Positions 16,601 to 34,887 of a DNA stretch of 35,246 bases are shown here, in pieces. The translations under genes and the position numbers were made by a program. The notes under the pieces were generated by a model, which was not told where the DNA came from, did no database searches, and saw nothing but the letters and a program-made list of their open reading frames with translations. The first letter of the stretch is position 1. Every line of letters starts with the position of its first letter. The DNA is taken from positions 1 through 35,246 of the forward strand of contig JAITVV010000090.1 of assembly GCA_031285625.1 (NCBI GenBank), in the 5' to 3' direction. Origin of the DNA: Prevotella sp. Lineage in GTDB: Bacteria; Bacteroidota; Bacteroidia; Bacteroidales; Dysgonomonadaceae.

Positions 16601-16717
16601 ATGAAAACAATATTAATATTTATAATTCTACTGTTTAGTATGAATTCCAGTCTCAAAATACTATTACAACAATACTATTTAAATGCCTCCCCAATAGCCT
16701 GTCCTCTCCATGCCTGA
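16601..16717 (+). pseudogene. Truncated signal-peptide ORF, 38 aa
   Basis: ATG at 16601 opens MKTILIFIILLFSMNSSL, a good signal-peptide start, but the ORF then runs into the complement of the phosphodiesterase gene end and stops at 16717. It looks like the 5' stump of an exported protein gene whose remainder was lost. It may still be chance. Confidence 0.3.
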
Positions 16718-17632: not shown

Positions 17633-17640
17633 CAAAAGTA
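17633..17640 (-). promoter_or_regulatory. Candidate -7 box of the phosphodiesterase gene
   Basis: The minus strand reads TACTTTTG, a full TAnnTTTG match and identical to the box upstream of the DUF2264 operon (29182-29189). The nearest GTCCGG element starts ten bases further upstream (17650), overlapping the place of the -33 box. Confidence 0.5.
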
Positions 17641-17643
17641 TAA

Positions 17644-17735
17644 TAATACTTGTCCGGATAGGGATAATATCGTACGCACAAGGGCGTAATATTGTCCGGT
17701 AGAGTTTTTATCCCTCTGTTCGGACAAAATATGCG
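17644..17735. promoter_or_regulatory. Three GTCCG operator-like elements before the HTCS gene
   Basis: Site A1 is TTGTCCGGATAGGGATAA at 17650-17667 (plus). Site A2 has TTGTCCGG at 17692-17699 (plus), exactly 42 bases after A1. Site A3 is inverted: plus 17708-17727 reads TTATCCCTCTGTTCGGACAA, so A1 and A3 form an imperfect inverted repeat. All three match the elements between the two PUL arms at 29212-29284. I infer a binding region for the adjacent HTCS, allowing autoregulation and control of the phosphodiesterase gene. The rest of the 673-base intergenic region (17736-18226) is AT-rich; a short 66-residue ORF there looks spurious. Confidence 0.55.
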
Positions 17736-17857
17736 TGTCTGTTCGATATAATAATAAATTATTTATCCCCGAATGTAGGTGCGCAAAGATAATAATTTAT
17801 CAACAAATGCTAAAATTTGATGCGGTTGTCCTAATATTTTATTCTACTTTTATGTCG

Positions 17858-18226: not shown

Positions 18227-21200
18227 ATGTCGACTAAATCTATACTAGCCAGATCTATACTGCCTTTCATACTCTTCTGCTTTTATCTAACTGTATCAGC
18301 TCGTAATGATATTTACTTTTATCGATTAGGAGCAAAAGACGGATTGTCTCAAGTGAGCATCATGTCTATATATCAGGATGAGTTTGGGGCTATATGGTTT
18401 GGTTCAACAGAAGGATTGAATAGATATAATGGACGAGAGATAGAAGTATTCAGACCTGATAGAAAGGGCGAAGGACTCTCGCAGAATACGATATACGAAA
18501 TATGTGGAAATCAACAAGGAGCGATCTATCTACGTTGCGATAGAGATCTGGTACGCTATGATATTCATACGCAGAAGTTTGAAAACATACAACGGGGAGG
18601 AGTTATGTCTATTACTTATGCACACGGTAAACTATGGGTCGCTGTGAAGAACAAGATATTGCAATATGATGAGCAGTCGAAACTATTTAAGGAATACGCT
18701 ATTCTCAATGATATTAAAGCTGGTATTACTTCCATATATTGCGATAAAGACGGATCTATATGGATAGGTACTTTTTCCGGATTGTATTTTATCTCTGATA
18801 AAAGCCAGAAAGAGCAAAAATGTATTAAGGATAAGATATATGTCAATCGGATTTATCAAGACCGAAAAGATAATCTATGGATCGGAACTTTCTATGATGG
18901 CGTTTATGTAACGGACCCTTCGGGAAATATTGAGGCTAATTATACTCATCTGGATGCGACTAATTCCATATCTAATAATCAGATAAGGAGTTTCACTGAA
19001 GATAATTCCGGTAATATATGGGTGGCTACGTTTTATGGTTTAAGTAAGTTCAGTCCTGATACTAAAGAGTGGAAACAGTATGTTAGCAATGATAATGTTT
19101 CGCACAGCCTTAGCCATTCTTCTGTATTTTCTTTATATAAGGATAAGCAGGGTACTATATGGGTTGGTACATATTTTGGCGGAGTTAATTATTTCAATCC
19201 TGATACGGATATCTTTCGTTTTTATGAGCCGAATTCTATAATCACAAGTAATTTAAGTTTCCCGTATGTAGGGAGGATGATAGAGGATAAATATAATAAT
19301 CTTTGGGTTTGTACAGAAGGGGGGGGATTAAATTGTTTAAATCTGAAAACCCGGGAGTTTTCTCGTTATTTGATTAATAAATCCGATTCGGAATCTCTTA
19401 TCGGATATAACCAGAAAGCTATATGGTATAATGAGAAAAAAGATCTGCTTTATATTGGCATGCATAAAAGAGGGTTGGTTATATTCGATGTGAAGACAAA
19501 AACATTCAGAGTGCTCAGAGAAAATAATAGACCCGGATCGTTACCGAGTAATACTGTCAATAAGATTCAGTATTACGATGGTGCACTCTATTTATTGACA
19601 CAGTCGGGTTTGGTAAAAATGGATATCGATACCGAACAGTTTTACCCGGTGAGTGATAATCCGGTTACACAAAAAGCAATATCTGGAATCGGACTTAGTG
19701 CATTTCTTATTGATAGTAAAGATCGTTTGTGGGGTTCGGTTAATGGTGGTCTTAGATCCATAAACTTGAAAACCGGAAAAGTAAAGGATTATTTTTATGA
19801 TGAGTCGAACGAAAGGTCGATCGGGCGCTTTGACATTGAAAGCATATTTGAAAGCAGCAAAGGCGAATTGTTCTTTGCTACAATGGGTTCGGGTATTTAT
19901 AAATACAATCCGGAAACAGACGATTTTGATAATTATACGGAAGAGAAGAATGGATTACTGAACAATTATTGTTATGATATATCAGAAGCTCCGTCGGGTA
20001 AGCTTATATTATTACATAACAGAGGCTTTGCTTTATTTGATCCTGCAAATCCGGATGGGGATTTATTTATATCTTCCCCTAGTTTTCCTATCGTGGGCTT
20101 CAATATCGGTAACTCCAGCTATGTAACGCGGGACAAAGAAATATTTATTGGAGGAATAAATGGACTGGTATCTTTTGTTGAGGGAGATCTTGATAAAGTT
20201 GATAAAGGTTATTCTCTTTTTTTTGATAAGTTATTTATAAATAATCAACAGGTTTTACCCGGTGACAAGTCCGGTATACTGAAAGAAACATTGCCTCTTT
20301 GTTCGGAAATCGACTTAAAATATAATCAGAATAATATTACTATCGAGTTTGCAACATCTAACTATTTGCGAACGAAGACTCATGAGTACGAGTACAAGCT
20401 GGAAGGTTTTGATCAGGATTGGTTATCGACAAGGATGAGGTCTATTTCGTATACTAACTTGAATACAGGGACTTATACATTGCTTGTTCGTGAAATATCG
20501 CAGCAGGGAGGAAGAGAAGGAAAAGTATATTCTCTGAACATCAATATTCATCCGCCATTTTATTTGACTACGGTTGCTTTTATCATATACGGTATATTGA
20601 TATTGTTAGCCATAGTTGGTTTTTTTAGATTTTATCTGTGGCGAACGAAAATGGAAACAACTTTGGAGTTTGAACGTAAAGATAAAGAGCGAATAGAAGA
20701 ACTAAACCGCACCAAGTTAAGATTTTTCATAAGTGTGTCTCACGAATTCAGAACACCTCTCACGTTGATTAAAGGACAAGTAGAAACACTTCTCCTGCAA
20801 GGAGATTTAAGTTCGAAATTGCATAATAAACTTGCTAAGATTCTTAAGAATACCAACCATTTGCAAAATCTTATTTCAGAACTTCTTGATTTCAGAAAGC
20901 AAGAACAAGGGTTTTATAAATTAAACATTAAGTGTGTCGAACTTATAGCCTATATGAAAGAAATATACAGTTCATTCGAAGACTATGCTGTAAAAAGACA
21001 AATAAAATACAAGTTAGAGTATTCAGATCAAGAAATCCATATTTATATAGATCCGGTACATTTTCAAAAAGCGATCTATAACCTTCTTTCAAATGCTTTT
21101 AAATATACTTCTCCCGGAGGAGAAATTACACTAAAAGTTAAATTGCAGAAGGCGGATGTCCTTATTCAAATAATAGACAACGGAATAGGTATTCCTCCGG

Positions 21201-22279
21201 AATCATTAAATAAAGTGTTTGAACGGTTTTATCAATTAGAATACAGGTCTTCAGGGCTTACATTAGGCACAGGTATTGGCCTTGCTCTTACTAAAGAGAT
21301 TGTCAATAGCCATAAAGGAGGTATTTCGGTAGAAAGTATGGTGAATGAGGGCAGTGTTTTCACTATAGCTCTTAAATTAGGGACATCCCACTTTTCGGAG
21401 GAAGAACTTAATCATAATAATGTAAATAAAGATGTAAAGGCTATAGATATGCCTGTCTATGAGGGAGAAGATGATGTGCTGATTGAGGAAAATATCACGA
21501 TAAACAGGGAAAAACCTGTGATATTATTGGTTGATGACAACGAGTCATTATTAGAAATGCTTACAGACTCATTTGCCCCATATTATAATGTATATACCGC
21601 AATAAATGGTAGAGAGGGGTTGGATATGATATATAAGGTACAACCTGACTTGGTTATAAGTGATATAATGATGCCGGAAGTTTCGGGAAAAGAGCTGTGC
21701 TACAAAATGAAAAATAATGTTGATACGGCGCATATTCCGATTGTACTTCTAACAGCTCAAACTTCCGACAACCAGATTATTGATGGATATATTTTTGGTG
21801 CTGATGCCTATATTACAAAGCCATTCAATATAAAAATGCTGATTACGCGTTGTAATAACCTGATAAAAAACAGGCTGATCCTTTATAAAAAATTTGCTAA
21901 TAAGGAAGAGATTGTAATGCCGTTTGATACTCTTGCGGAACAGGATCAAGTGCTGATGGACAGAGCTGTAAAGGTTATTAAGGGAAACTTTAATAATCCT
22001 GAATTCGATATGAACAAGCTGGCTATCGAACTCGGTATGGGGCGGAGTAAGCTATATATGAAAATTAAAGAAATTACAGGTTTTACTCCAAACGAGCTGA
22101 CTCTTAATCTTAAGTTGCAAGAGGCGGCCAGTATGCTGGACAATAAGCACCATATGAATATTTCCGAGATTGCATTCGAACTTGGTTTCTCGTCAACAAA
22201 ATATTTTACAAAATGCTTTAAAACCTTCTATGCCATGGTGCCTCAGGATTGGAGAAGGAGAAATAAACCTAAAGAATAA
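18227..22279 (+). CDS. Hybrid two-component system regulator (HTCS)
   Basis: A 1350-residue one-protein two-component system that senses an imported oligosaccharide in the periplasm and activates PUL genes. Order: signal sequence (1-25); two seven-bladed Reg_prop propellers (about 30-690; blades such as GAIWFGSTEGLNRYNG, DNLWIGTFYDGVYV, GTIWVGTYFGGVNYF); Y_Y_Y domain (about 698-775); transmembrane helix (about 780-803); HisKA with VSHEFRTPLTL, phospho-His H839; HATPase with NLLSNAFKY, DNGIGIP and GTGIGLAL; receiver domain with VDDN and phospho-Asp D1146 in SDIMMPE; and C-terminal AraC-type DNA-binding domain (about 1245-1345, ending FSSTKYFTKCFKTFYAMVPQDWRRR). All key phosphorelay residues are present. 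It lies beside the PUL enzymes and probably binds the GTCCG elements at 17644-17735 and 29212-29284. The ligand cannot be read from sequence. Confidence 0.95.
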   Translation: MSTKSILARSILPFILFCFYLTVSARNDIYFYRLGAKDGLSQVSIMSIYQDEFGAIWFGSTEGLNRYNGREIEVFRPDRKGEGLSQNTIYEICGNQQGAIYLRCDRDLVRYDIHTQKFENIQRGGVMSITYAHGKLWVAVKNKILQYDEQSKLFKEYAILNDIKAGITSIYCDKDGSIWIGTFSGLYFISDKSQKEQKCIKDKIYVNRIYQDRKDNLWIGTFYDGVYVTDPSGNIEANYTHLDATNSISNNQIRSFTEDNSGNIWVATFYGLSKFSPDTKEWKQYVSNDNVSHSLSHSSVFSLYKDKQGTIWVGTYFGGVNYFNPDTDIFRFYEPNSIITSNLSFPYVGRMIEDKYNNLWVCTEGGGLNCLNLKTREFSRYLINKSDSESLIGYNQKAIWYNEKKDLLYIGMHKRGLVIFDVKTKTFRVLRENNRPGSLPSNTVNKIQYYDGALYLLTQSGLVKMDIDTEQFYPVSDNPVTQKAISGIGLSAFLIDSKDRLWGSVNGGLRSINLKTGKVKDYFYDESNERSIGRFDIESIFESSKGELFFATMGSGIYKYNPETDDFDNYTEEKNGLLNNYCYDISEAPSGKLILLHNRGFALFDPANPDGDLFISSPSFPIVGFNIGNSSYVTRDKEIFIGGINGLVSFVEGDLDKVDKGYSLFFDKLFINNQQVLPGDKSGILKETLPLCSEIDLKYNQNNITIEFATSNYLRTKTHEYEYKLEGFDQDWLSTRMRSISYTNLNTGTYTLLVREISQQGGREGKVYSLNINIHPPFYLTTVAFIIYGILILLAIVGFFRFYLWRTKMETTLEFERKDKERIEELNRTKLRFFISVSHEFRTPLTLIKGQVETLLLQGDLSSKLHNKLAKILKNTNHLQNLISELLDFRKQEQGFYKLNIKCVELIAYMKEIYSSFEDYAVKRQIKYKLEYSDQEIHIYIDPVHFQKAIYNLLSNAFKYTSPGGEITLKVKLQKADVLIQIIDNGIGIPPESLNKVFERFYQLEYRSSGLTLGTGIGLALTKEIVNSHKGGISVESMVNEGSVFTIALKLGTSHFSEEELNHNNVNKDVKAIDMPVYEGEDDVLIEENITINREKPVILLVDDNESLLEMLTDSFAPYYNVYTAINGREGLDMIYKVQPDLVISDIMMPEVSGKELCYKMKNNVDTAHIPIVLLTAQTSDNQIIDGYIFGADAYITKPFNIKMLITRCNNLIKNRLILYKKFANKEEIVMPFDTLAEQDQVLMDRAVKVIKGNFNNPEFDMNKLAIELGMGRSKLYMKIKEITGFTPNELTLNLKLQEAASMLDNKHHMNISEIAFELGFSSTKYFTKCFKTFYAMVPQDWRRRNKPKE

Positions 22280-22370: not shown

Positions 22371-24653
22371 TTAATTTATTCCAAAGGTATTTTGTTCTGA
22401 TTTAAGATGTTTTACTGGTTTTGGAAATATGGTTTTTAATGTTTTATCTATTATTTGTACGATATCCCCCTCTTTTGTTTTTATTTCAAGTAATCCGGTC
22501 GACTTGTCGATTACTGAAAAATGAACTTTGCCACCGCCTATCTTATAAATACTGAGATTATCCGTATTCATAGCTGTTTGTATGCGGCACAAACCTCCTT
22601 TTTCACTTTTTATCTGTATAAATACTGTTTTTCCTCCTTCGCGTGATGCACTTACAAGAAAGGCGCCTTCTGTTCTGAAATTTATAAAAGATGCCTGAGG
22701 CCAATCTGTCGGTACGGCAGGAAAGATTCTTATTTTGCCATTCCATACTTGCAGGTAGAGATCCTGTAACGATGCAGCTCCTGCTAAAGGTGTTTCTATG
22801 ACGGGTCCTGTCTCTTTATACAGAGTGTTTGGCTGGATATATTTATCAATCAGCTTTTGTAATTGGATAACAGCCCTTTCTCCGTCACCCATCATCGAGT
22901 ACATAGACGATGAACCTGTAAATGAATATCCTTGCAGATAGCTGGGCATACCTTGCCAGTGAGCGATACTTTTAGAAATAAGCGCCCTATTCTCGGGCTG
23001 ATCCCAATTAATCAAATAAAGAGGATAGATCATCATCAGATGAGAATAATGCCGGTGAGAACCGGTTAGGTTGACATCTTCACCAATCATAAATCCTTTC
23101 TCAGAATCAGTGGGATAATTTACCAGATTGCCTTTAAAATCTTCCCAAACAGAAGCTTTTTGGTCATTTAACTTGTAAGCCTCATTTATGTCCAATAAAG
23201 TTTTCAGTCCCCATTGAAGTAAAGCCAGGTCGTAGTTACAGTCTTTCGCTGTTTTATATTCAGGAGAAGCAGTTTCCGGTAAATGATACTTTCCATCTTC
23301 TCTTTTTTCTTTTATATGCTCATAGTATGCTATGCTTTTCTTCAACAAAGGATAGAATTTTTTTAACAGTTCGTTTTCATCGTACAGGTACATGCAATAC
23401 TGGTAATAATAGTATAGTATCCAGGTCAGATTGCCTACCTCGTACACCGGTTTATTATTGATGTCAAGCCGTGAATATAAATGATAACTCGTACTCCGTC
23501 CCATGACTATAGCATCTTTTCTCCATTCTTCAACCGATACATTTTCAGACAGATGCTCCAAATTATCATTTAATGATTTCCATAGAGTCTCAGACATCTC
23601 TGTCCGGTTAGCCGTAAACAATGGAGAATAGGTTAATTGAACATTGAGGTTCATCCAGATTGCAGGCCATGGCGTCTTCTCCATTGCCCAAGGTCCCTGA
23701 AGGTCTATAATATACTTGTCAGGACGAGTCAGGCAACCCAGTTTGTATTGCTGTATCCAATAGAAACTTTCTATCTTTGTGTTCCCGAAGGAAGCAAAGC
23801 TGGCGGGATAGTATGCATGCCACCATTGCTTATGACTGTTCTCCAGTGACGAGGATGCCTCCTTTGTAGCACTGTCAATAGTTTCTTTAGCCTTGCTTAT
23901 AGCTAATTCTTCTGTATTTTCGTGGGTGATGGTTATCGTTATGCGTCGCGAGCTGCCTTTCTTTATTTCTTGCCAGGCCACAACATACGTCTTTCCTCCT
24001 TTCAGATTCTGTACAGACAATTTGTACTCTCCATCCGTATATATTTTCACATCCGGATTTGGATTGTCTATATATTCCTGAGGATAATCTTTATTTCCGA
24101 ATGTATAGCGTGGACTTATGGCTTTTGAAGCGTTCCAGTCCCATTGAAAAACAGTCTCTTTTCCTTCTGTATCCGTTTCTAATACGATAATATCTCTGGT
24201 TGAATGTACATAGCTTTTGAAAGAGATCTTCCCTTTATCCGTTGTAATGGCACCCGTAGTGGTTGCATCCCACAAATTAAGCCTCATATTTTCGGAGAGA
24301 ACTGTTCCAACAGGCTTTATCAGGAAATATCCGATAGGCAGTCTTGCTCCGTCATACAGATTCCTGTACTGTGATTTATCGGCCGGCATTCTGCCTTCAG
24401 TTACATCCACTCTACCTATATGGAATTTATAATTGTCTCCTTCTTTATATATGCTGTTTCCTAAAAGCCCATTTCCCATTATAGCCCCTGCATAGTAGTC
24501 CGGAGTTATTTTATTCCAGACTAAATCATGTTGATTAAAAAATACCTCCCAATTTATATCTTGAGGTGTAATTGTCTTTTGTGCATGGAGTTCGTTAAAT
24601 AACCACATGGCTAAGAGAAGGATAATATAGGTTTTTAAAAAATTCTGTTTCAC
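22371..24653 (-). CDS. GH95-like glycoside hydrolase
   Basis: A 760-residue exported protein (signal peptide 1-24, ending LHAQ). The N-terminal domain has AIMGNGLLGNSIY and HIGRVDVTEGR, as in GH95 (where the motif is usually LGNG.LG). The (alpha/alpha)6 part contains IWMNLNVQLTYSPLF (the Asn pair of GH95), LPETASPEY (region of the general acid Glu), and HRHYSHLMMIYPL. Known GH95 enzymes are alpha-L-fucosidases or alpha-L-galactosidases. The motif around the catalytic Asp (DGNFG in characterised members) reads VIETPLAGAASLQDLYLQ here, so the Asp appears to be replaced. The true reaction is uncertain. It is the last gene of the four-gene minus-strand PUL operon, three bases after the GH88 gene. 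Confidence 0.75.
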   Translation of the reverse strand: MKQNFLKTYIILLLAMWLFNELHAQKTITPQDINWEVFFNQHDLVWNKITPDYYAGAIMGNGLLGNSIYKEGDNYKFHIGRVDVTEGRMPADKSQYRNLYDGARLPIGYFLIKPVGTVLSENMRLNLWDATTTGAITTDKGKISFKSYVHSTRDIIVLETDTEGKETVFQWDWNASKAISPRYTFGNKDYPQEYIDNPNPDVKIYTDGEYKLSVQNLKGGKTYVVAWQEIKKGSSRRITITITHENTEELAISKAKETIDSATKEASSSLENSHKQWWHAYYPASFASFGNTKIESFYWIQQYKLGCLTRPDKYIIDLQGPWAMEKTPWPAIWMNLNVQLTYSPLFTANRTEMSETLWKSLNDNLEHLSENVSVEEWRKDAIVMGRSTSYHLYSRLDINNKPVYEVGNLTWILYYYYQYCMYLYDENELLKKFYPLLKKSIAYYEHIKEKREDGKYHLPETASPEYKTAKDCNYDLALLQWGLKTLLDINEAYKLNDQKASVWEDFKGNLVNYPTDSEKGFMIGEDVNLTGSHRHYSHLMMIYPLYLINWDQPENRALISKSIAHWQGMPSYLQGYSFTGSSSMYSMMGDGERAVIQLQKLIDKYIQPNTLYKETGPVIETPLAGAASLQDLYLQVWNGKIRIFPAVPTDWPQASFINFRTEGAFLVSASREGGKTVFIQIKSEKGGLCRIQTAMNTDNLSIYKIGGGKVHFSVIDKSTGLLEIKTKEGDIVQIIDKTLKTIFPKPVKHLKSEQNTFGIN

Positions 24654-24656
24654 AAC

Positions 24657-25910
24657 CTAGGACTTCTTATTGAGATTCTTATATCTGATCAGGGCTTCCA
24701 AGAAATAATAGTCAGCATAAACCAGTGGCTTGTCTATTTCTGACTTATGTGGTATACTGCCAACGCTATGCATTAACAAAAAGTCGGCATTAGCACCTAA
24801 TGGCGCTCTGTATGCAGGTGAGGCCAGATTGTGAAGCATTTTTATTGCATAATCGGTATACGATTGATTATTTGCGTATTCTGCCAACTCGAAGAGTGCT
24901 GAACACACAATAGCGGCGGCCGAAGCATCTCTTAAATCCCTGCCCGGAAATTCAACAGCATAAGATTTACCTTCAGGTATATATCCTTCCTGTCCTACAT
25001 TAAAGTCCCACAATGGAACAAGGTCCTCCGGCAGGTTTTTAAGATAGATATCTGTAGCTTTAATGGCGGCCTCCAAAAATTTCTGATCTTTTGTCTCACG
25101 GTATACCATTGTGAACCCATATATAGCCCATGCTTGTCCGCGCGACCAAGTAGAGTTGTCACTGAATCCCTGACAGGTTGCCTGATTGAGGACTTTACCT
25201 GTTATCGTGTCATAATCAACTACATGGTAGGTACTGAAATCCTCCCTGAAATGGTTTCTCAGTGTAGACTCGGAATGTTTTACAGCAATATCATAATATT
25301 TCTTATCACCACTCACTTTTGATGCATAAAAAAGCATTTCCAGGTTCATCATATTGTCTATGATTACAGGATAAAACCATTCTGTTGTATCATTCCAGTT
25401 TTTCCGGTAATTCCACGACTTGATCGTCTGTGTTTTTTCACTGAAACGCGAAGAAAGAGAATTAGCGCTTTCTATCAGGATCTCTTTATATCCCGGCTTC
25501 GGGTCTAACCTTTCGGCATTACCATAGCTGCAATACATCATGAAACCCAGGTCATGGTGTCCGGTAAATGTTTTTAGCGGCTCCAGCGATGTAGTCCATT
25601 CTTCTGCTATGTCTCTCCATTTTGTTTCACCTGTAAGCTCGTACAAATACCATAGTGATCCCGGAAAAAATCCGGGAGTCCAGTCATACATACTTGTGAC
25701 AGCCAGTTCCCCGTTCCTGTTCATTGTCCGGGGATAATTATTTCCTGTAGGTTTTCCTACAACTTGTAACATCTTATCTGTCTGATCTGCGGCAAACGCC
25801 ACATTGTCTTTTATAAAATCTTCTTTTTCTTCTTGCTTATTCTGACAGGCTGCAACCAGCGGTATTATGGCAAATGTAAGAAAAAGCAGTTTAAAATTTC
25901 TCAAGTTCAT
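24657..25910 (-). CDS. GH88 unsaturated glucuronyl hydrolase, lipoprotein
   Basis: A 417-residue enzyme that removes 4,5-unsaturated uronic acid from oligosaccharides made by polysaccharide lyases, by hydration of the double bond. The N-terminus has a lipobox LVAAC, so it is probably membrane-anchored in the periplasm. The two catalytic Asp regions are TGHHDLGFMMY and VIIDNMMNLEML. The family signature DNSTWSRGQAWAIYGF is intact, as is FPGRDLRDASAAAI. Length is typical. Its place directly after a heparinase II/III-like lyase gene (three-base gap) fits lyase-then-hydrolase processing. Whether it prefers heparin-, chondroitin- or plant-type disaccharides cannot be told. Confidence 0.92.
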   Translation of the reverse strand: MNLRNFKLLFLTFAIIPLVAACQNKQEEKEDFIKDNVAFAADQTDKMLQVVGKPTGNNYPRTMNRNGELAVTSMYDWTPGFFPGSLWYLYELTGETKWRDIAEEWTTSLEPLKTFTGHHDLGFMMYCSYGNAERLDPKPGYKEILIESANSLSSRFSEKTQTIKSWNYRKNWNDTTEWFYPVIIDNMMNLEMLFYASKVSGDKKYYDIAVKHSESTLRNHFREDFSTYHVVDYDTITGKVLNQATCQGFSDNSTWSRGQAWAIYGFTMVYRETKDQKFLEAAIKATDIYLKNLPEDLVPLWDFNVGQEGYIPEGKSYAVEFPGRDLRDASAAAIVCSALFELAEYANNQSYTDYAIKMLHNLASPAYRAPLGANADFLLMHSVGSIPHKSEIDKPLVYADYYFLEALIRYKNLNKKS

Positions 25911-25913
25911 TTT

Positions 25914-27824
25914 TTAAGCTTTAATAAAAATTTTATATGTTCCCCTGTTATTTATTTTCTTTGCATTTAACGATATTCTGACTATTTCATCTCCCCATAC
26001 TCCCGATAGTCTGGTGTCATCGAGTTTTATCTTTTCTGATACCGGATCAAAGATGTTTTTATCATATATCAGTTGATATGTTTTGTTTTTTATTGTAATT
26101 TTTATCATGCCCGGCTGTGAAGTATCTACTTCCCCGTAGGTCATGAAATTTAATTGATTCGCTGTTTGAGCACTAATTATATCATAATTATCTTCTATTG
26201 TCAGGCCGTTTTTAGATAAATTGTAGTTACGTATCCATTTGTTTATTCCAGCTTCGATGGGATACGATTGTGAAATATCTAAAGAAAAAGTCTTTTTATT
26301 TTTATCAGCTTTAAGATCTCTGGCTCTGTATTTTTTACCAAAACTTTGAGAAAAGCCATTGATTCGCGGAAGGTTGTGATAGTCGCTTTGCATTGTCCAT
26401 ATTGTATACCGTTCGCTGCTGAAAGTTTTTCTTGTATATGTTCCTACTCCTGCATCTATTAATACAGGTTCGTTGTTTACATATAATGAAAATGTACCAA
26501 TGTCATTGTGATTATGGCTTTCGTCATTATATCCTCCTTTGGCGGCAAAGAAAAAATTACCTTCGCTCATGTAACAGAATTCAGTATCAGGATACCATGT
26601 GAAAGGTGTCGGGATATGTACCGGATTGAACTTGTCTATTTCCTTCTCGGATGATAAATCGGCTAAAATTCTGTACATATCGCGTGACAGAACTGTTTCT
26701 CTCGGATATTCCTTTTTCAGATAAGAGGCGAATTGTTCCATCTCCGTGCTTTTCACCATATTCCCGTAACGATATATCAACCGATAGTCGAAATCTCCTT
26801 TTGCTGAGGCATCGGCAAAATTTACGACCCATTTGTTTCCTACGTATGACCGTGATATATATTCACCCATATTCTTAATTACAGGATCTGAGAATATAGA
26901 TATTTTGCCATCGGTGGCATCATACAGTGCCTGTAAATAATCGTACATTTTACCGGCAGCATGACCCCAATAGGAAGGTCCTTCTTCACAAGCACCATCA
27001 TCGTGATTATAATTGATAAATTTATCGACAGAAACCATTGTCTTATATACCCCTCTGAGTAGGCGTTTCTTATCCTTTTCTACCAAAAGAAAGCATTGCA
27101 GTACGTTTGCATTACACCAGGGATTCCAGTTATTGACAAAGCCATTATCGGCTGTTACGTTGGAAGCCATCCACCAAAAACGAGTTTCGTTCAGATAGGG
27201 TGTTAATATGCGATTTTCTATTTCATAATGTAAACGTTCTGAAATGAGAGGGTTGATTTTGTCGAACTCTTTATTCAGGAAGTAATATATCCACGAAAAA
27301 GTTGCTCCTGTATCGCCTGAAACAAGTTCAATGACATGATCGCCGAGCTTAGGAAACGATCCTTCAACACGTTGTAGAGATAGGTGAGCCGATATAGCCC
27401 ATGATGTCATTTCACAAATATGGAAGATTCCGTTCGATAGTTGATCCATAAACCGCCCTTTTCCCTCGGCCATTTCTGCCACGAATAGAGCGGAAATAGC
27501 ATTCAGGTTGCTATTATGTATCTTTTCCAGGTCGCTTCTGTTACCCGTTCTCGTATACTCAAGATAGTCGGTTGCTTTAACCACTTTCCATTCGTAGTTA
27601 AGGAATTTTTCTCCTTGCCCGATGAAGAAACTTCTATTTTCACCCATGAGCTGATTCCACCCGTTTCTGTCTGTATATTGAGGATAACGTACCCATTTTT
27701 GATCTGTTATGAGTACATTTTCCAGTTCTGCGGGATCGGCAGCCTTCTGGAGTAAATTCCGTTCTTTATACGCGTGAACAGATAGGCATATAAAGAGTAA
27801 ACAGAATGTTAATACCTTTCTCAT
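25914..27824 (-). CDS. Heparinase II/III-family polysaccharide lyase
   Basis: A 636-residue exported lyase (signal peptide about 1-18, ending SVHA). The N-terminal two thirds are helical (alpha/alpha toroid), with NNWNPWCNANVLQC near residues 232-245 and DDGACEEGPSYWGHAAGKMY near 280-300, both common in heparinase II-type lyases and carrying the Asn/Tyr/His catalytic candidates. The C-terminal beta domain has GGYNDESHNHNDIGTFSLYV and PVLIDAGVGTYT. Such enzymes split the uronic acid side of a glycosidic bond by beta-elimination, leaving an unsaturated sugar for GH88. It is closest in appearance to PL21-like proteins, but other CAZy families share these motifs, so the polymer is left open. Two-base gap to DUF2264, three to GH88. 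Confidence 0.85.
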   Translation of the reverse strand: MRKVLTFCLLFICLSVHAYKERNLLQKAADPAELENVLITDQKWVRYPQYTDRNGWNQLMGENRSFFIGQGEKFLNYEWKVVKATDYLEYTRTGNRSDLEKIHNSNLNAISALFVAEMAEGKGRFMDQLSNGIFHICEMTSWAISAHLSLQRVEGSFPKLGDHVIELVSGDTGATFSWIYYFLNKEFDKINPLISERLHYEIENRILTPYLNETRFWWMASNVTADNGFVNNWNPWCNANVLQCFLLVEKDKKRLLRGVYKTMVSVDKFINYNHDDGACEEGPSYWGHAAGKMYDYLQALYDATDGKISIFSDPVIKNMGEYISRSYVGNKWVVNFADASAKGDFDYRLIYRYGNMVKSTEMEQFASYLKKEYPRETVLSRDMYRILADLSSEKEIDKFNPVHIPTPFTWYPDTEFCYMSEGNFFFAAKGGYNDESHNHNDIGTFSLYVNNEPVLIDAGVGTYTRKTFSSERYTIWTMQSDYHNLPRINGFSQSFGKKYRARDLKADKNKKTFSLDISQSYPIEAGINKWIRNYNLSKNGLTIEDNYDIISAQTANQLNFMTYGEVDTSQPGMIKITIKNKTYQLIYDKNIFDPVSEKIKLDDTRLSGVWGDEIVRISLNAKKINNRGTYKIFIKA

Positions 27825-27826
27825 GT

Positions 27827-29071
27827 TTATTGTTTTATTGATTCATGGTAATCCTTTAGAAATGGCTTGCCACTCCATGCTTTTTGAGAAGTCCACTCTT
27901 CGGCGGGAGAAGTCCAGAATTCATGGTCGGCAGGTAATCCTAACGGCAGGAATACCAAAGACGTGATATATAAGCTTCCGGCGTTTGTATAATAATCGGC
28001 AAGGTTAGGTTGGTGTCCTACAAATCCTAGTTGCAGGTATCCCTCCTTATTGTAATTGTCTTCATTGGAGAACATTCTCTTCATAACACTGGTCAGGGCA
28101 TTTCTTACCTGTCCGTTTGTCATGGTTTTTGGCAGACCATATTTCCATGCAGATAAAGACAGAGCCTGGAATGCCCCCATACGATAAGTCATAGAACGTC
28201 CTATTGCCGGAAAAGAGGCTTCGGGCGAGATCAATCGCTCTATTAATTGATTGTATCGTTGCATACGCCTGAGGGCCAAGTCAAATTTTACAGGGCTATA
28301 TATCTTCTTGTTCTCCATTACTTCAATTATTTCTACATACATCGGGTGCATTACATATCCGTTGTAGTAATCAAATGAATATTCGGGTCCGTCGGAATAC
28401 CATCCGTCGCCCAGATACCACTCATTCATTTTATGGATAGAGAGATCCAGTGCATACCCGTCATATTCTTCATCTATTGAAACCAAAAACGCTTCGATCA
28501 TAGCCCTGAAAAGCAGCCAATTATTATATGCGGGTCTTATCTTACGCAGGCTTTGAAATTCTTTTATATAGCGGTACTTAGTTACCTGATCGAGAGGTTC
28601 CCATAAAGCTTTTGGTGCACGGATAAAACTATTGGCTATATATGCGGCATCTACTAATACTTGGTTTGAACCTTTCCACAAAAGATAATCCGGATTATTA
28701 GGGTCTACTGCATTAGCATAGCTTTGTAGAGCCCATTCTCGTATTTGTTTTCTTTGTTTGCCTTCATTTGTATTATCATCCGCAAGATTGAGCCATGGGG
28801 CTATACCGGCTATCAAACGACCGAAAGCTTCCATGTAAGCCACGTCTTTATTGCGTCCGTCCCATGTAGGACTGTATTCTACAACCATGTTTTTCTTCAA
28901 TTCACCTTTACTCATATTGCTAAGTACGGGTGCCGACATTTTATATAGCTGGCTTACCCAATAATCTCTATCATTTGCTGAAACCGTATTCTTTCTGTTT
29001 TGTGAAAAAATACCGGTACTGATGCATAAGCATAAGATTAGAATTAAAAATTTCCGGATATTAGATTTCAT
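27827..29071 (-). CDS. DUF2264 (GH154-like) exported protein
   Basis: A 414-residue exported protein (signal peptide 1-23, ending IFSQ) of the DUF2264 group: WDGRNKDVAYMEAFGRLIAG, YNNWLLFRAMIEAFLV, YLGDGWYSDGPEYSFDYYNG and GYVMHPMYVEI are family motifs; the fold is expected to be (alpha/alpha)6. From memory, this group includes CAZy GH154 beta-glucuronidases in arabinogalactan PULs, which I hold with moderate confidence. It is the first gene of the enzyme operon; its candidate promoter is at 29182-29189 with a leader of about 100 bases. Confidence 0.82.
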   Translation of the reverse strand: MKSNIRKFLILILCLCISTGIFSQNRKNTVSANDRDYWVSQLYKMSAPVLSNMSKGELKKNMVVEYSPTWDGRNKDVAYMEAFGRLIAGIAPWLNLADDNTNEGKQRKQIREWALQSYANAVDPNNPDYLLWKGSNQVLVDAAYIANSFIRAPKALWEPLDQVTKYRYIKEFQSLRKIRPAYNNWLLFRAMIEAFLVSIDEEYDGYALDLSIHKMNEWYLGDGWYSDGPEYSFDYYNGYVMHPMYVEIIEVMENKKIYSPVKFDLALRRMQRYNQLIERLISPEASFPAIGRSMTYRMGAFQALSLSAWKYGLPKTMTNGQVRNALTSVMKRMFSNEDNYNKEGYLQLGFVGHQPNLADYYTNAGSLYITSLVFLPLGLPADHEFWTSPAEEWTSQKAWSGKPFLKDYHESIKQ

Positions 29072-29181
29072 AGTGTTCTATTTTTGATAATTAGTGTGAT
29101 TATATTCCTTAAAAATATGGCTTTTTAATTAAAAAAAAGCGATTAAAGACTATTAACCATTAGGTATATCTACTCTTGATG

Positions 29182-29189
29182 CAAAAGTA
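29182..29189 (-). promoter_or_regulatory. -7 box of the PUL enzyme operon
   Basis: The minus strand reads TACTTTTG, full TAnnTTTG match. It is separated by exactly 22 bases from the left arm of the inverted repeat at 29212-29284. No TTG -33 box is seen, as expected for an activator-dependent promoter. Confidence 0.6.
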
Positions 29190-29211
29190 GATCGAAGTTT
29201 ATGCCTCGTGC

Positions 29212-29284
29212 GGTATTATTGTCCGGCCAAGGGGGTAAAAATGTACACCGAATGATTATCACCTGCTTTGAGGACAATAATACC
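29212..29284. promoter_or_regulatory. Shared operator: 13-bp inverted repeat between PUL arms
   Basis: GGTATTATTGTCC (29212-29224) and GGACAATAATACC (29272-29284) are perfect inverted copies separated by 47 bases. After the left TTGTCCG the sequence continues to GGGGGTAAAAA, matching site A3 upstream of the HTCS gene (GAGGGATAAAAA) at the same spacing. Each outer end is 22 bases from a -7 box (29182-29189 minus; 29307-29314 plus). I infer the HTCS binding site that activates both divergent operons. The remainder of 29072-29600 is AT-rich leader sequence with one strong hairpin (29461-29487). Confidence 0.65.
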
Positions 29285-29306
29285 CGTGTTAATTTTATAT
29301 AATATC

Positions 29307-29314
29307 AATATTTG
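29307..29314 (+). promoter_or_regulatory. -7 box of the SusC/SusD operon
   Basis: AATATTTG differs from TAnnTTTG in one essential base (A for T at the first position; the second base, A, fits). Its spacing to the operator arm (22 bases) is the same as on the other strand. Transcription would start near 29321 and give a leader of about 280 bases. Confidence 0.5.
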
Positions 29315-29460
29315 TACAGGAATTTTAGACATCCTAATATATAAAATAGGAGATTAATCTTATGTGGAAATATTCTCTGTCTAGTACTGTTTTTTCTGCT
29401 GTTTTTCGCTTGAAAATTTAGTAGTTAATTCTATTTTACCAGGAAAGAGTATCCCCACTC

Positions 29461-29487
29461 CTAATAAAAAAATTCTTTTTTTATTAG
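29461..29487 (+). other. Perfect AT-rich hairpin in the susC leader
   Basis: CTAATAAAAAAA (29461-29472), loop TTC, then TTTTTTTATTAG (29476-29487): a perfect 12-bp stem. The T7 on the 3' arm resembles a terminator tail, but the stem is almost all A-T, so it is a poor terminator. It lies in the predicted untranslated leader, 114 bases before the susC ATG, and could affect mRNA stability or expression level. Confidence 0.5.
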
Positions 29488-29600
29488 AGAAAATTCCGAA
29501 AAGTGTTTTTCTTATTATTTAATATATAACACAAATTAATATGATGGACTTAAGTTCCCTCTATTAACCTTTTAATTAATTAACTCATTATTGAAATTCT

Positions 29601-32600
29601 ATGAAAGCAATGAAAATTAGATTTTTTTGCACTATAATGTGCATGTTCTTTCTTTTTATGGTTGCGCCGGTGAATTCATTTGCGACAGTAAATGAAGTAT
29701 ATCAGCAGTCGATAACCGTAAAAGGAAAAGTAACAGACAAAGACGGAGAACCTCTTCCCGGCGTTAGTATAATACTTAAAGGTACTACTACTGGTGTAAT
29801 GACTGATGTAGATGGTAAATATTCGATAAATGTACCGAATAGTAATGCAACTTTGACCATATCTTATATGGGATTTATACCACAAGAACACAAAGTAGGT
29901 AATAATATTACCCTTGACATAGTACTCGTTGAACAAAGTACAGTCCTCGACGAAGTTGTAGTTGTAGGATATGGCGTGCAGAAGAAAGTAAATTTGACAG
30001 GTTCTGTGGCAGCAGTACAATCGGACAAGATAGAAAACCGTGCTGCTCCAAACCTCTCCACTATGCTTACAGGACTAGCTTCGGGCGTGTCGGTACGACA
30101 AGGTTCCGGAAATCCTGGTAGCGACGGAGCTAATATACGTATTCGTGGAATCGGTACCTTCGATGGTGACTACCGTTCCCCTTTAGTTATTGTTGACGGC
30201 GCAGAAGCCGATATGAACTCTTTGAACCCTGAAGATGTAGAAAGTGTGAGTGTACTTAAGGATGCGGCATCAGCTGCTATTTACGGGTCCCGAGGAGCAA
30301 ATGGAGTAATCTTGGTTACTACTAAAAAAGGAAGAAAGAATGTTGCTCCGAAAGTTACCTATACAGGCATTCTCTCACGAACTACAGCTAGCAGGGTATT
30401 CGATTTTATTTCAGATTATGCCGAATATATGGAATTGTATAATATGGCCGAATTCTCTGCCAATCCCAAAGCTATAAGTACATATGATGCAAATGAAATT
30501 GCGGCATGGAGAGCAGCCAAGTCTGATAGGAACGGTATATATACCGATCCGGATACAGGAAATCAGGTTCCTAATTATCTTGCATATCCTAATACTAATT
30601 GGAGTGATATTCTCTTTGCTCCTACACATTCTCAGAAGCATACGCTATCAGTATCGGGTGGTAGCCAGAACAGTAATTACCTGATGTCTTTGGGGTATTT
30701 TGAAGCACCCGGCACACTCGAAAATACAGGAATAGACCAATTTAATGCACGTGTGAATGTAGAAAGTCAGATTACTAAATTTCTCAAGATAGGAACACAA
30801 ACTTATGCCATGCGGCAACGCAAAGATCCGGGAAATCTGGATCAGGTAAATACATATCGTTTCCAAACGGTCGGTGGTATTGTCCCGATTCATGATGGTA
30901 AATACGGAGGTCCTGAAAGTCCTAATGAGAAAAATGATGTACGGAATCCTCTTCGGGATGTAAATGCTATAGGAGGAAAAAATACGACTACACGTATTAA
31001 TACGACATGGTATGCTGAAGCAGAATTCTATAAAAACCTCATTGGACGGGCAAGTATAAACTACCAGAATTATTTCTATGAAAAGAAAAACCACTCTCGT
31101 CATTTAGACAGTTACACTTTTCGTAAAGGCACCATATCGATACCCGGTACTAGTCTTGGAAATGCTACTACTACACGTGCCTATGAAAAACAAGAGCAGT
31201 ATACGGCGAATATCACACTTAATTACAATACAACCTTTGCCGATAACCACTACATAGGGGTAATGCTTGGTTATGACCAATTTTACTTCAACAGGTCAGG
31301 AGTAAGTGCAAGAAGAAAAGGACTACTGAGCTTTGATGTTCCTGATATAACTACAGGTGCGGAAATGGATGATATAAGTGGTAATCCGGGTCAGGAAAAG
31401 AACGAAAATAAACCCGAAATGGATTATGCAATGCTTTCCTATTTCGGACGTTTGAATTATGCTTATAAAAACCGCTATCTGTTCGAAGCTAATTTCCGTC
31501 GCGATGGGGCCTCCCGCTTCTCCCCGGACAACAGATGGGGAACTTTCCCTTCATTTTCTGCCGGCTGGCGAATTAATGAAGAACCTTTTTTCGAACCGTT
31601 GAGAGACAAAGTAAGTAACCTCAAGCTTCGCGCTTCATGGGGAAAATTAGGCAATACTACTTCCGGATATTACGACTGGCAAGCTGTATATGCTAAGGCT
31701 AACTATGCATTCGGGAATGTTATTTCTGATGGTGTAGCAATTTCAAAGATCGCAAACTCACTGTTAAAATGGGAAAGTGTGACATCTACAGGTATTGGCT
31801 TGGATGCATCATTCCTAAATTCCCGCTTGTCTTTAGAATTTGATTATTACAACAAGCTTACAAAAGGTATCCTCACTTCTCCTGCTATGTATCTGACTAT
31901 GGGTACAGCCACTGCACCTACCTTAAATACATCCGATATGAGAAACAAAGGATTGGAAATTACAATAGGCTGGAATGATAAAATAGGTAATGTCCGTTAT
32001 GCTGTAAGTGGTAATTTCTCATATAATACGAATAAAGTGGTAAAATATCTCGGTAAACTTGATGAAGGTTGGGTAGAAGAGAATGGAAAAATGGTATATA
32101 AAAGCAACTTAGGTGAGACCAGCACCACCGGGTCTGAGACAGGATCGATACGTCTCGAAGGACATATGTTTGATGAGTATTACCTTCGTAAACGTTATAA
32201 AGGCACTGGAACTTATTACAATTCGGATGGAAGCGTAAATCCGGGTGGAGGTCCTAAAGACGGTATGATACGTACCGAAGCAGACCTAAAATGGGTACAG
32301 GATATGATCGCAGCTAAATACTCCTTTAACGGAGCAGCAGTAAAACAGGATGGAGGCTTATGGTACGGCGAATACATTTATGGTGACCTCAACGATGATG
32401 GAAATTATGGAAATACCTATGACCGTGAGTTTTCAGGTAAGTCGGCAGCACCTAAATATAACTTTGGTTTGAATCTGTCTGCCGAATGGAAAGGATTTGA
32501 TATCAGTATGACATGGGCCGGAGCAGGCGGCTTCTGGTATTACCTGAGAGAAAGAGGAGCTAATCAAAATAATCTGTCTTCTAAAACAGATGTTTTACCT

Positions 32601-32972
32601 CTGGATACCCGGGACAAGTTTTATTATCTGGCTTATGATCAGGCAACCGGTGCACCTGTATGGAACGACCCTTCCAATAATCTAACAGCTGAATATGCAC
32701 GTCTGCGTACAGGTGGGGACGGTACTTATGTAGCAAACGACCAGTTTCTTTACGATGCAAGCTATCTGAAACTCAAAAATCTACAGATTGGTTACACATT
32801 CCCTAAAGAATGGATGCGTAAAGCATTTATTGAGAATCTACGGGTATTTGTTACAGGAGAAAACCTGCTTACTATTACCGGTTATCCGGGCGTCGATCCG
32901 GAAATAGGCAGCGGATTGAATATATACCCTATCTCACGTCAACTTTCAGTGGGTGTAAATGTTAGTTTTTAA
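29601..32972 (+). CDS. SusC/RagA-family TonB-dependent transporter
   Basis: A 1123-residue outer-membrane importer of oligosaccharides, energised by TonB. A signal peptide covers about 1-28 (ending VNSFA; ATG at 29610 is an alternative start, three residues in). A carboxypeptidase-D-like regulatory domain follows (about 38-110: VKGKVTDKDGEPLPGVSIIL, TTGVMTDVDGKYSI), then the TonB-box region VLDEVVVVGYG, then plug domain (about 125-245, with RIRGIGTF and VLKDAASAAIYGSRGANGV) and the beta barrel to the C-terminus, which ends in Phe (VGVNVSF). No extra N-terminal STN domain is present, so it is not an anti-sigma-linked version. It forms a complex with the SusD-like protein encoded 16 bases downstream. 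Confidence 0.96.
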   Translation: MKAMKIRFFCTIMCMFFLFMVAPVNSFATVNEVYQQSITVKGKVTDKDGEPLPGVSIILKGTTTGVMTDVDGKYSINVPNSNATLTISYMGFIPQEHKVGNNITLDIVLVEQSTVLDEVVVVGYGVQKKVNLTGSVAAVQSDKIENRAAPNLSTMLTGLASGVSVRQGSGNPGSDGANIRIRGIGTFDGDYRSPLVIVDGAEADMNSLNPEDVESVSVLKDAASAAIYGSRGANGVILVTTKKGRKNVAPKVTYTGILSRTTASRVFDFISDYAEYMELYNMAEFSANPKAISTYDANEIAAWRAAKSDRNGIYTDPDTGNQVPNYLAYPNTNWSDILFAPTHSQKHTLSVSGGSQNSNYLMSLGYFEAPGTLENTGIDQFNARVNVESQITKFLKIGTQTYAMRQRKDPGNLDQVNTYRFQTVGGIVPIHDGKYGGPESPNEKNDVRNPLRDVNAIGGKNTTTRINTTWYAEAEFYKNLIGRASINYQNYFYEKKNHSRHLDSYTFRKGTISIPGTSLGNATTTRAYEKQEQYTANITLNYNTTFADNHYIGVMLGYDQFYFNRSGVSARRKGLLSFDVPDITTGAEMDDISGNPGQEKNENKPEMDYAMLSYFGRLNYAYKNRYLFEANFRRDGASRFSPDNRWGTFPSFSAGWRINEEPFFEPLRDKVSNLKLRASWGKLGNTTSGYYDWQAVYAKANYAFGNVISDGVAISKIANSLLKWESVTSTGIGLDASFLNSRLSLEFDYYNKLTKGILTSPAMYLTMGTATAPTLNTSDMRNKGLEITIGWNDKIGNVRYAVSGNFSYNTNKVVKYLGKLDEGWVEENGKMVYKSNLGETSTTGSETGSIRLEGHMFDEYYLRKRYKGTGTYYNSDGSVNPGGGPKDGMIRTEADLKWVQDMIAAKYSFNGAAVKQDGGLWYGEYIYGDLNDDGNYGNTYDREFSGKSAAPKYNFGLNLSAEWKGFDISMTWAGAGGFWYYLRERGANQNNLSSKTDVLPLDTRDKFYYLAYDQATGAPVWNDPSNNLTAEYARLRTGGDGTYVANDQFLYDASYLKLKNLQIGYTFPKEWMRKAFIENLRVFVTGENLLTITGYPGVDPEIGSGLNIYPISRQLSVGVNVSF

Positions 32973-32988
32973 CCTTAAAAAAAAAGTT

Positions 32989-34887
32989 ATGAAAAAATAC
33001 AGTATAATATTAGTAATTGCTATTGTAATATTCGGAAATTACAGTTGTACAGATTTATTGGATACTGATCCGTATAACGCATTATCGTCACAAAGTATGT
33101 GGCAATCCGAAGAATCGGTAGATCAGGGTGTGAGAGGTATTTACTCTGCATTATATGATTGGGCTCCCGGAGCTTATGATGCTGATTATGAGAAAAATTA
33201 TGGAAGTACATTTGGATTTGAACGCTGGGCTGTAACCGGACAATTATATGGAGCCGAATCTTTGACAAGTGGCTCTATTAATCCCAGTAGCGCTTATTTT
33301 AGTAAAACCTGGCAGAAGCTTTATGAAGGCGTTCACCGCTCCAATGATGCTATTACCAATATCCCTGCCAAATCACCGGCTTCTGCTGAAAAGAATGCAC
33401 GATTAATAGCAGAATCCAAATTTCTACGTGCTTATTTTTATTTCCGCTTAAATGAGTTATTTGGCCGCGATGGGCTCGGTGTCCCGATTTATACTGAACC
33501 GATAGCTGTAGCAGATGCTATAAAAGGGCAATCTTCCGAAGATGAAGTATGGTCTCTTATTATTAGTGACCTTACCGATGCTATTAATGAGCCAAACCTC
33601 CCGAATAGGGAAACTACAGGACGAGTTAGTAAGGGAGCTGCTTACGCATTGCGCGGCAAAGCATATCTTTACCAAGGTTCGAAATATGCAGCAAACGGAA
33701 CTGTTTCTAAAAATGACGATTTACTAAATAAAGCTATTGCCGATTTTAATGAAGTCGCGAAATGTGGTTACGGACTATTTCAGGGCGGCTACAAAGAATT
33801 ATTTACAGAGGCTAATGAACACAGTCAGGAAATGATCTTCAGTATTCAGCATACAGCAGATGCTGGCTATGGCACTATTTCTCAAAAATTTGTAGGTAGT
33901 CGTTTCGCGTACTCAGGCACAGCTAACGGTTGGGGAAATCAGACACCTGCACCCGGAGGTTTGGATTTTTTTGAAAATGTCAATGGAACTCCTTTCAGTT
34001 GGGACGATATAATCCCAGGATACAGTGCGCTTGAACCAGCCGACCGTGCAGTATATTTTATGCGCGATACATTAGATGCATCGGGAGCAATTATCAAGCA
34101 GGAAGGTAATGGAGCTCCTCTGGACCTAACAGTGCGCACAAAAGTAAGAAACATCGTAAATGCCGCTTCGGAAACAAAAGATAAATATCTACCATATGGT
34201 AATGAAGCCCGTATCAGAAAAGTATATACCGATAGAGACCCCCGCCTTGAAGCGAATTTTATTACACCCTATGCCGGATTTATAGGTGGATATAGTTTCG
34301 CCGGAGATGGTAATGCCATGGAAGTGTTTTCAAGATGGCCTCTTGGCTCTAATAGTGCAGCTCCGGCAGTTAGTCAAAGAGCAGATATAGCTACAGATGA
34401 TGGCAGCAATTTCACTTATTTCCATCGTAAATTTGTTTATGAAGGAGCTGGACTTGCGCGCAGAGAAGACGGACCACTTGATGAGCCTCTTATCCGTTAT
34501 GCAAATGTTTTACTTTGGCAGGCAGAAGCTTACGTGGAATTAAATCAACTGGATAAGGCAAAAGCGAATGTAAAGCAAGTGCGGGATCGCGTTAGTATGC
34601 CCACTCTGGATATCTATTTCGCAGATCAAGCTTCAGCCCGAAACTATGTTCGTGATGAGCGTCGCCGTGAATTTGTAAATGAAGGTGTTAATTTTTTCGA
34701 CGAAATGCGCTGGCGTACATGGAAAGAAATGAAATTTGAAAAAGGACAAGGAACAAAAGGTGTCTGGGGTAACTTTATTCGTACCTATTCCTGGCCTAGT
34801 GCCAATGACCTGTATATCTGGCCTGTTCCTCTATCTGAAATTCAAAAAAATCCAAATTTGACTCAAACTCCTGGATGGCAATACTAG
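32989..34887 (+). CDS. SusD/RagB-family glycan-binding lipoprotein
   Basis: A 632-residue surface lipoprotein that caps the SusC barrel and captures glycan. I chose the ATG at 32989, which gives a lipoprotein signal peptide (MKKYSIILVIAIVIFGNYSC, lipid Cys20). An upstream ATG at 32959 is inside the susC end and would add ten residues (MLVFNLKKKV). SusD features are TDLLDTDPYNALSSQSMW, the helical TPR region with AESKFLRAYFYFRLNELFG near residue 140, RGKAYLYQGSKY, YANVLLWQAEAYVELNQ and the C-terminal RDERRREFVNEGVNFFDEMRW and YIWPVPLSEIQKNPNLTQTPGW. It is a single operon with susC. The polymer bound is not readable from sequence. Confidence 0.96.
   Translation: MKKYSIILVIAIVIFGNYSCTDLLDTDPYNALSSQSMWQSEESVDQGVRGIYSALYDWAPGAYDADYEKNYGSTFGFERWAVTGQLYGAESLTSGSINPSSAYFSKTWQKLYEGVHRSNDAITNIPAKSPASAEKNARLIAESKFLRAYFYFRLNELFGRDGLGVPIYTEPIAVADAIKGQSSEDEVWSLIISDLTDAINEPNLPNRETTGRVSKGAAYALRGKAYLYQGSKYAANGTVSKNDDLLNKAIADFNEVAKCGYGLFQGGYKELFTEANEHSQEMIFSIQHTADAGYGTISQKFVGSRFAYSGTANGWGNQTPAPGGLDFFENVNGTPFSWDDIIPGYSALEPADRAVYFMRDTLDASGAIIKQEGNGAPLDLTVRTKVRNIVNAASETKDKYLPYGNEARIRKVYTDRDPRLEANFITPYAGFIGGYSFAGDGNAMEVFSRWPLGSNSAAPAVSQRADIATDDGSNFTYFHRKFVYEGAGLARREDGPLDEPLIRYANVLLWQAEAYVELNQLDKAKANVKQVRDRVSMPTLDIYFADQASARNYVRDERRREFVNEGVNFFDEMRWRTWKEMKFEKGQGTKGVWGNFIRTYSWPSANDLYIWPVPLSEIQKNPNLTQTPGWQY

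Follow-up and report, generated by a model that had tools for sequence, protein, structure and literature searches.

Genes and promoter elements of the locus

The window, i.e. the whole stretch of 35,246 nucleotides that was analysed, carries a PUL of a Prevotella sp. in which an enzyme operon and a susC/susD operon diverge from a 529-bp intergenic region. The HTCS gene lies within the PUL, beyond the four-gene minus operon and about 7 kb from the promoter fragment. The genes discussed are the following:

16675-17553, minus strand: phosphodiesterase-like gene
18227-22279, plus strand: HTCS gene, the proposed activator, whose DBD orthologues accompany the operator (Pfam: propeller sensor, Y_Y_Y, HisKA, HATPase, receiver and AraC-type HTH)
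22371-29071, minus strand: operon of DUF2264, heparinase II/III-like, GH88-like and GH95-like genes
29601-34887, plus strand: operon of susC-like (29601-32972) and susD-like (32959-34887) genes

A sequence-only reading had interpreted the intergenic region as a symmetric divergent promoter with a single perfect 13-bp inverted operator. The elements that it named are all present. The left arm GGTATTATTGTCC (29212-29224) and the right arm GGACAATAATACC (29272-29284) form an exact 13-bp inverted match with 47 bp between them, and on both sides the gap from the arm end to a -7-like box is 22 bp. The sigma-ABfr elements are given, in the accessible sections of PMC7366714, as a -7 consensus TAnnTTTG and a -33 TTTG. 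The minus box matches this -7 consensus and the plus box is an imperfect version of it. Neither TTTG nor TTG was found 16-25 nt upstream of either window box, in agreement with the proposal of a divergent promoter pair devoid of -33 boxes. An Rfam search of 28900-29700 returned four matches, all far under the gathering scores with E values of 1 or more.

The inverted repeat exceeds what chance would provide: among 2000 dinucleotide shuffles of the 529-bp intergenic region, a 13-bp inverted repeat of any composition, its arms separated by no more than 150 bp, appeared in 21, and one with at least six G/C in none. The assembly (4.84 Mb, 94% complete) holds two exact copies of the 13-mer, which are the arms themselves. 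Eleven further places with one mismatch represent background, since the reversed pattern matches more often (23 matches against 13 in all). When the search was confined to the window and two mismatches were allowed, four matches were obtained, a number that was reached in 4 of 100 shuffles.

Conservation of the region and its four half-sites

The region can be divided into four half-sites arranged A> B> <C <D between the two boxes, and a second composite of the same arrangement is found elsewhere in the window:

29182-29189, minus strand: -7 box TACTTTTG of the putative minus-operon promoter (DUF2264-HepII/III-GH88-GH95); a TAnnTTTG match, with a TAnnTTTG box here in the 11 compared sites
29211-29227, minus strand: half-site A, proximal for the minus operon, including the left arm
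29233-29249, minus strand: half-site B, distal repeat of A, 22 bp off (22-bp self-similarity peak over 22 promoters)
29247-29263, plus strand: half-site C, distal repeat of D, 22 bp off; weak in the window and overlapping B by about 3 bp
29269-29285, plus strand: half-site D, proximal for the susC operon, including the right arm
29307-29314, plus strand: -7-like box AATATTTG of the putative susC/susD promoter; xxxxTTTG at equal distance in 10 orthologous regions, picked by eye
17658-17738, plus strand: second A> B> <C <D composite, between the phosphodiesterase-like and HTCS genes, first seen by eye and matched by profile R1

Orthologous loci were collected through the DUF2264 protein, which yielded 24 of them. 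Fifteen upstream regions were inspected, and seven with a recognisable divergent region were aligned with the window (eight regions in total). The 11 compared sites are the window, these seven regions, L038 and G019/L073, which were added later through model searches, and the second site of the window. The two late additions are matches outside the training set: L038, from Ca. Symbiothrix, scores 62 bits and G019/L073 37.8 bits (E 6.2e-9). The composite occurs in 8 of the 24 DUF2264 loci and the other 16 have no match at E ≤ 1 in the model search; one of these 16, L034, has an HTCS with 56% DBD identity.

The geometry of the region is better kept than its letters. The box-to-box interior measures 117-119 bp in 10 orthologous regions (and 116 bp at the second site, should its poor plus box be allowed), the plus boxes being imperfect and picked by eye from xxxxTTTG matches, while pairwise identity over the region drops to 0.51 among the eight aligned regions. 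The distance from box to start ranges from about 20 to 176 nt on the minus side (nine loci) and from 41 to 408 nt on the plus side (eight loci). For L026 and L029 the minus distance was taken up to the first tblastn-aligned residue (2 and 5, respectively), so that the true values are smaller by about 3 and 12 nt. The fixed interior between variable leaders indicates constraint on the inner geometry and none on the flanks. At the -33 position, TTTG is found in none of the 22 promoters and TTG in three. A stretch of about 22 bp separates the -7 box from the proximal half-site upstream of it, whose end falls where a -33 element would sit.

The half-site is about 17 bp long and reads, in promoter orientation, roughly CGGACAATTTTATACCC, with a direct-repeat period of 22 bp. 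The period was obtained from 22 promoter-oriented sequences (11 sites) that were aligned on the -7 box and not on the half-sites, the 17 nt at the arm position being compared with the sequence further upstream. Identity is highest at a shift of 22 bp (0.519, against 0.377 at the next-best shift). When the distal columns were permuted jointly, which keeps relatedness, none of 20,000 permutations reached this peak, either at 22 bp or at any shift from 17 to 32. The window's own promoters alone also peak at a shift of 22 (0.53). The repeat is less pronounced at the plus sites than at the minus sites (0.44 versus 0.59). In the window, D and C agree at 8 of 17 positions, half-site C being weak, and the second site scores higher at a shift of 25 (0.41) than at 22 (0.38). 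The features of HTCS direct repeats are found here, namely same-strand half-sites about 21 bp apart, a position upstream of SusC/D operons, an HTCS gene in the locus and the motif at orthologues.

On sequence comparison, the arms are the promoter-proximal halves of two putative direct-repeat operators set back to back and not one palindrome. The single inverted operator of the sequence-only reading is thus abandoned, as the inversion is not conserved. Paired arms, which it had proposed to look for upstream of orthologous genes, keep their geometry there but not their mirror image: A and D match at 13 of 13 positions in the window only, and their best 13-mer identity is 5-12 in the other 10 sites. 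A single dyad-symmetric operator, with a palindrome-binding protein or a looping repressor on both arms, would account for the exact mirror arms and the symmetric geometry of the window, and profile R1 (a sequence-only profile built from the eight divergent regions and the second site) also matches the reverse strand at most of its sites. It is nevertheless very unlikely, given that the 22-bp direct repeat persists in the sites where mirror identity is lost, that a palindrome predicts neither this repeat nor the single direct-repeat operators of genome G011 (see below), and that absent -33 elements suit an activator better than a repressor.

Phase-variable inversions are common in Bacteroidales, and perfect 13-bp inverted repeats might also be recombinase sites between which the 47-bp spacer flips as an invertible promoter. 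Both -7 boxes lie outside the arms, so such an inversion would move no promoter; moreover, arm identity is not kept in relatives and the spacer contains conserved half-sites. We regard this reading as extremely improbable.

The second composite and the specificity of the operator

The second composite, missed by the sequence-only reading, is accompanied by a good -7 box on the minus side (17633-17640); on the plus side no good box is present. R1 gives two strong matches in the window's own genome, both within this PUL (E 2.8e-18 and, for the second site, 5.4e-16) and both members of its training set. A third strong match was not found among the 150 of 1319 first-look candidates that were scored; the next match (G000:C23, E 0.005) lies inside a 545-aa ORF and was rejected.

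An HTCS DBD at least 69% identical to that of the window occurs in 7 of the 25 genomes of the genus. Six of these seven also have the composite at E ≤ 1e-8, five of them being training members and G019 not. The seventh, G008, lacks the region because its contig begins at residue 221 of DUF2264. The remaining 18 genomes have no composite at E ≤ 1e-8, and weaker matches were obtained in two of them, G011 (E 4.9e-4, intergenic) and G012. The G012 match (G012:C5, E 0.0015) lies inside a 718-aa ORF and was rejected, as was a weak composite match in G019 (G019:C23) that looks coding by eye. As judged from these sequences, genomes of the genus have the candidate operator only if they also encode a close orthologue of the DBD of this HTCS. 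The second HTH contains a stretch, GFSSTKYF, that does not vary among the HTCS orthologues of L104, L107, L036, L103, L102, L027, L028 and L073. In L024, L025 and L026 the HTCS orthologue is on a separate contig, no HTCS orthologue was found within the 5.7 kb of DNA searched at L038, and the one found for L029 is only distant (35% DBD identity).

G011 has a PUL whose HTCS DBD is 58% identical. In this PUL, a single-operator matrix trained without the genome found two direct repeats: one, scoring 22.5 bits, precedes a susC-like gene and the other, at 18.5 bits, a 723-aa ORF, the distance to a box being 23 bp in both cases (AATATTTG and TACTTTTG, respectively). These operators are single and not paired (L074, 9907-9947 and 18351-18391). 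The matrix also gives false matches within ORFs, the highest at 17.9 bits (L100) and 16.6 bits (L076); the 18.5-bit site of G011 and a 16.0-bit site of G019 therefore stand out mainly through their distance to the box. In G012 (HTCS DBD 56%), a weak site of 11.4 bits lies 22 bp from TACATTTG and was not counted; the top matrix match of this genome, 17.9 bits, is inside a 1132-aa ORF. In the relative L078, a search of the sequence preceding the HTCS gene gave neither a composite nor a direct repeat, so that the possible autoregulation is not conserved. The phosphodiesterase-like gene had no tblastn match in any locus of the two locus sets searched.

These data also bear on which protein binds the region. 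Another AraC-type or HTCS protein of the genome could be involved in place of the PUL's own HTCS, and 55 first-look candidates for this DBD were obtained in the own genome. The only one that matches at E ≤ 1e-20 is the DBD of this HTCS itself, strong composite matches are confined to this PUL, and DBD orthologues co-occur with the operator. A different regulator is, on these grounds, quite unlikely. The sequence-only reading had proposed the adjacent HTCS as common activator of the two operons. The PUL's own HTCS is indeed the likely activator, in view of the kept geometry, the co-occurrence of operator and DBD and the 22-bp direct repeat on each side, but it is not adjacent to the promoter region.

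The susC leader and a family of (GA)n leader ORFs

The susC leader of the window (29315-29600) contains a further feature:

29362-29421, plus strand: relic leader ORF (MWKYSLSSTVFSAVFRLKI); the relatives L024, L025 and L036 have a (GA)n leader ORF and a terminator here

The susC leaders of these three relatives are 381-408 nt long. Each contains a small ORF with a constant part ending in FSxENLxVxxILL(ER)n, tracts of (GA)17, (GA)17 and (GA)30 respectively, and a terminator hairpin after the tract (-24.5 to -34.9 kcal/mol). The present frame of the ORF enters or crosses the hairpin; one of the alternative frames meets a stop no more than about 25 nt from the tract. This organization resembles the pil1 attenuator of S. 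gallolyticus, for which the accessible sections of PMC3894217 describe a leader ORF with a slipping GCAGA repeat upstream of surface-protein genes, one reading frame stopping before the terminator and the others within or beyond it. As in that description of pil1, a leader ORF and a repeat are combined such that the reading frame decides entry into the terminator; unlike in pil1, the repeat is (GA)n and not GCAGA, 108 dispersed places have a common peptide core, and the window has only a relic. Repeat tract and terminator are both present in L024, L025 and L036 and both missing from the window leader, where the frame differs after a poly-T, the longest GA run is 2 and there is no strong terminator. 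The window leader is accordingly not of the pil1 type. A perfect 12-bp A/T hairpin (CTAATAAAAAAA / TTTTTTTATTAG) is also present in the susC leader of the window at 29461-29487, upstream of the position of the relatives' terminator.

A pattern for the leader core gave 108 matches in 19 of 101 genomes of the family (16 of 25 in the genus), and the reversed pattern gave none. In the order, 2 of 295 genomes were matched, both of the same genus as the window. Sixty of the 108 places were taken (family loci L108-L180), of which 57 were re-found by regex and three were dropped. All 57 copies have an in-frame ATG without an intervening stop; it lies 16-20 codons upstream of the ENL motif in 53 copies, and exactly 17 codons in 33. 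The tracts comprise 7-65 GA units, the longest reaching 110 by a wider counting window, as assembled in MAGs (one assembly per species), where such lengths may be misassembled. An ORF follows on the same strand in 53 of the 57 copies, and the domains found in these 53 ORFs were TonB Plug (28), CarbopepD_reg_2 (26), Fib_succ_major (3) and ECF-sigma (2). The leaders L132 and L150 appear to precede the two ECF sigma genes (downstream N-termini MFIKNTSEDNLLWDNF.. and MTEPFDLKLFNKFY..).

A hairpin of at most -16 kcal/mol with a T-run is found between tract and ORF in 31 of the 57 copies, against 0 or 1 in shuffles (10 repeats). The other 26 copies have no hairpin by this criterion; a looser search at -9 kcal/mol, which had no shuffle control, found one in 41 of 57. 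In 30 of the 31 hairpin copies, the frames include one or more that stop ahead of the hairpin and one or more that read into it, a number that none of 300 spacer shuffles reached (mean 13.6, sd 2.3). By itself, a stop no further than 15 nt from the tract was not significant (28 versus 24.1; 5% of shuffles reach this number). The frames as assembled in the 31 copies read in 25 times, with 15 stops inside the hairpin and 10 beyond it, and stop before it in six.

From this arrangement, the leader family looks like a phase-variable attenuator and is a candidate for one. A search of NCBIfam with four leader peptides gave no relevant match, and a literature search found no account of (GA)n leader ORFs with terminators in Bacteroidota. 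No link to (GA)n leaders was found in the available part of the work on FopS sRNAs (PMC11697453).

Proposed mechanism and comparison with known systems

On the strength of the half-sites, their period, the box spacing, their conservation and the co-occurrence with the DBD, all read from the sequences, the region is very probably a divergent, activator-dependent promoter pair with two back-to-back HTCS operators. Binding, phosphorylation, activation and the start sites are predicted, as follows. The PUL's HTCS (18227-22279) would bind glycan fragments through its periplasmic propeller, and its receiver would become phosphorylated. An HTCS dimer, its AraC-type domains occupying a single direct repeat, would then act from the -33 position to recruit sigma-ABfr polymerase, in a manner similar to AraC class II activation. 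One HTCS would in this way switch on the enzyme operon and susCD jointly, and the second composite would add the phosphodiesterase-like gene and possibly the HTCS gene. Such joint HTCS-dependent activation of both operons is likely. HTCS receiver-DBD proteins of B. thetaiotaomicron were found to bind susCD promoters by EMSA, according to the accessible part of PMC11253607. The available part of a paper on xylan regulation (PMC12125979) contained nothing of relevance to this operator.

The operators can be compared with those of Bacteroides, for which the following is taken from the accessible sections of Ravcheev 2013 (PMC3878776). Direct repeats were predicted for 16 of 36 B. theta HTCSs, on average 21 bp apart, and were read as the binding of a dimer on one DNA face; the HTCS_Man motif consists of two 16-bp sites with a 5-bp spacer. 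The operators described here are similar in format: conserved sites of about 16-17 bp are repeated directly on one strand at a distance of about two helical turns, they precede susC/D operons, and the HTCS gene is in the locus (PMC3878776). They differ in their period of 22 bp, against an average of 21 (PMC3878776), in a host outside Bacteroides, and in the head-to-head fusion of two operators, whose spacing is fixed and whose inner half-sites overlap. The direct-repeat HTCS format is thus already published (Ravcheev 2013), and is here fused head to head in an unusually compact form. A literature search on divergent HTCS promoters found no paired HTCS operators described in titles or abstract openings.

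The second point of comparison is the araI1-I2 site of E. coli AraC. In this well-known case of class II activation, two direct half-sites are placed about 21 bp apart, and the proximal half-site overlaps the -35/-33 region of a promoter that has no good -35/-33 element. The promoters of the window likewise have the proximal half-site at the -33/-35 position and lack that element. Since the proximal half-site takes the position of the missing -33 element, AraC class II activation fits by analogy. The systems differ in that the proposed activator would be a membrane-tethered hybrid kinase dimer acting at a sigma-ABfr promoter with a -7 box.

A refinement compatible with the two-operator arrangement is that the four half-sites form one fused unit, on which two HTCS dimers would bind head to head in a cooperative manner or, owing to the overlap of B and C, exclude each other, the operons being fired strictly together or alternately. 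It would be in line with the overlap of B and C by about 3 bp without a spacer, with the box-to-box interior of 117-119 bp in 10 orthologous regions and with the similar second composite, and the two promoters of G011 have one direct repeat each. Tight packing without a neutral spacer would, however, resist indels as well, and we hold this refinement to be possible, though rather doubtful.

It is somewhat probable that the PUL stands under two layers of control, an HTCS switch and a slippage-driven (GA)n attenuator. The attenuator looks intact in three sister genomes and would have decayed in the window genome, leaving susC to the HTCS alone.

Significance

The operator is real and looks functional; it is ordinary in kind and unusual in compactness. 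For the HTCS of a PUL outside Bacteroides, it offers a clean operator that lends itself to testing and whose half-sites, period and placement relative to the sigma-ABfr boxes were read from conservation. Its head-to-head fusion poses the question of whether two HTCS dimers co-occupy a divergent PUL promoter or exclude each other from it. The (GA)n leader family is more surprising and more novel than the operator. If the proposed function is true, these leaders and their terminators would make the expression of SusC-like transporters phase-variable by attenuation.
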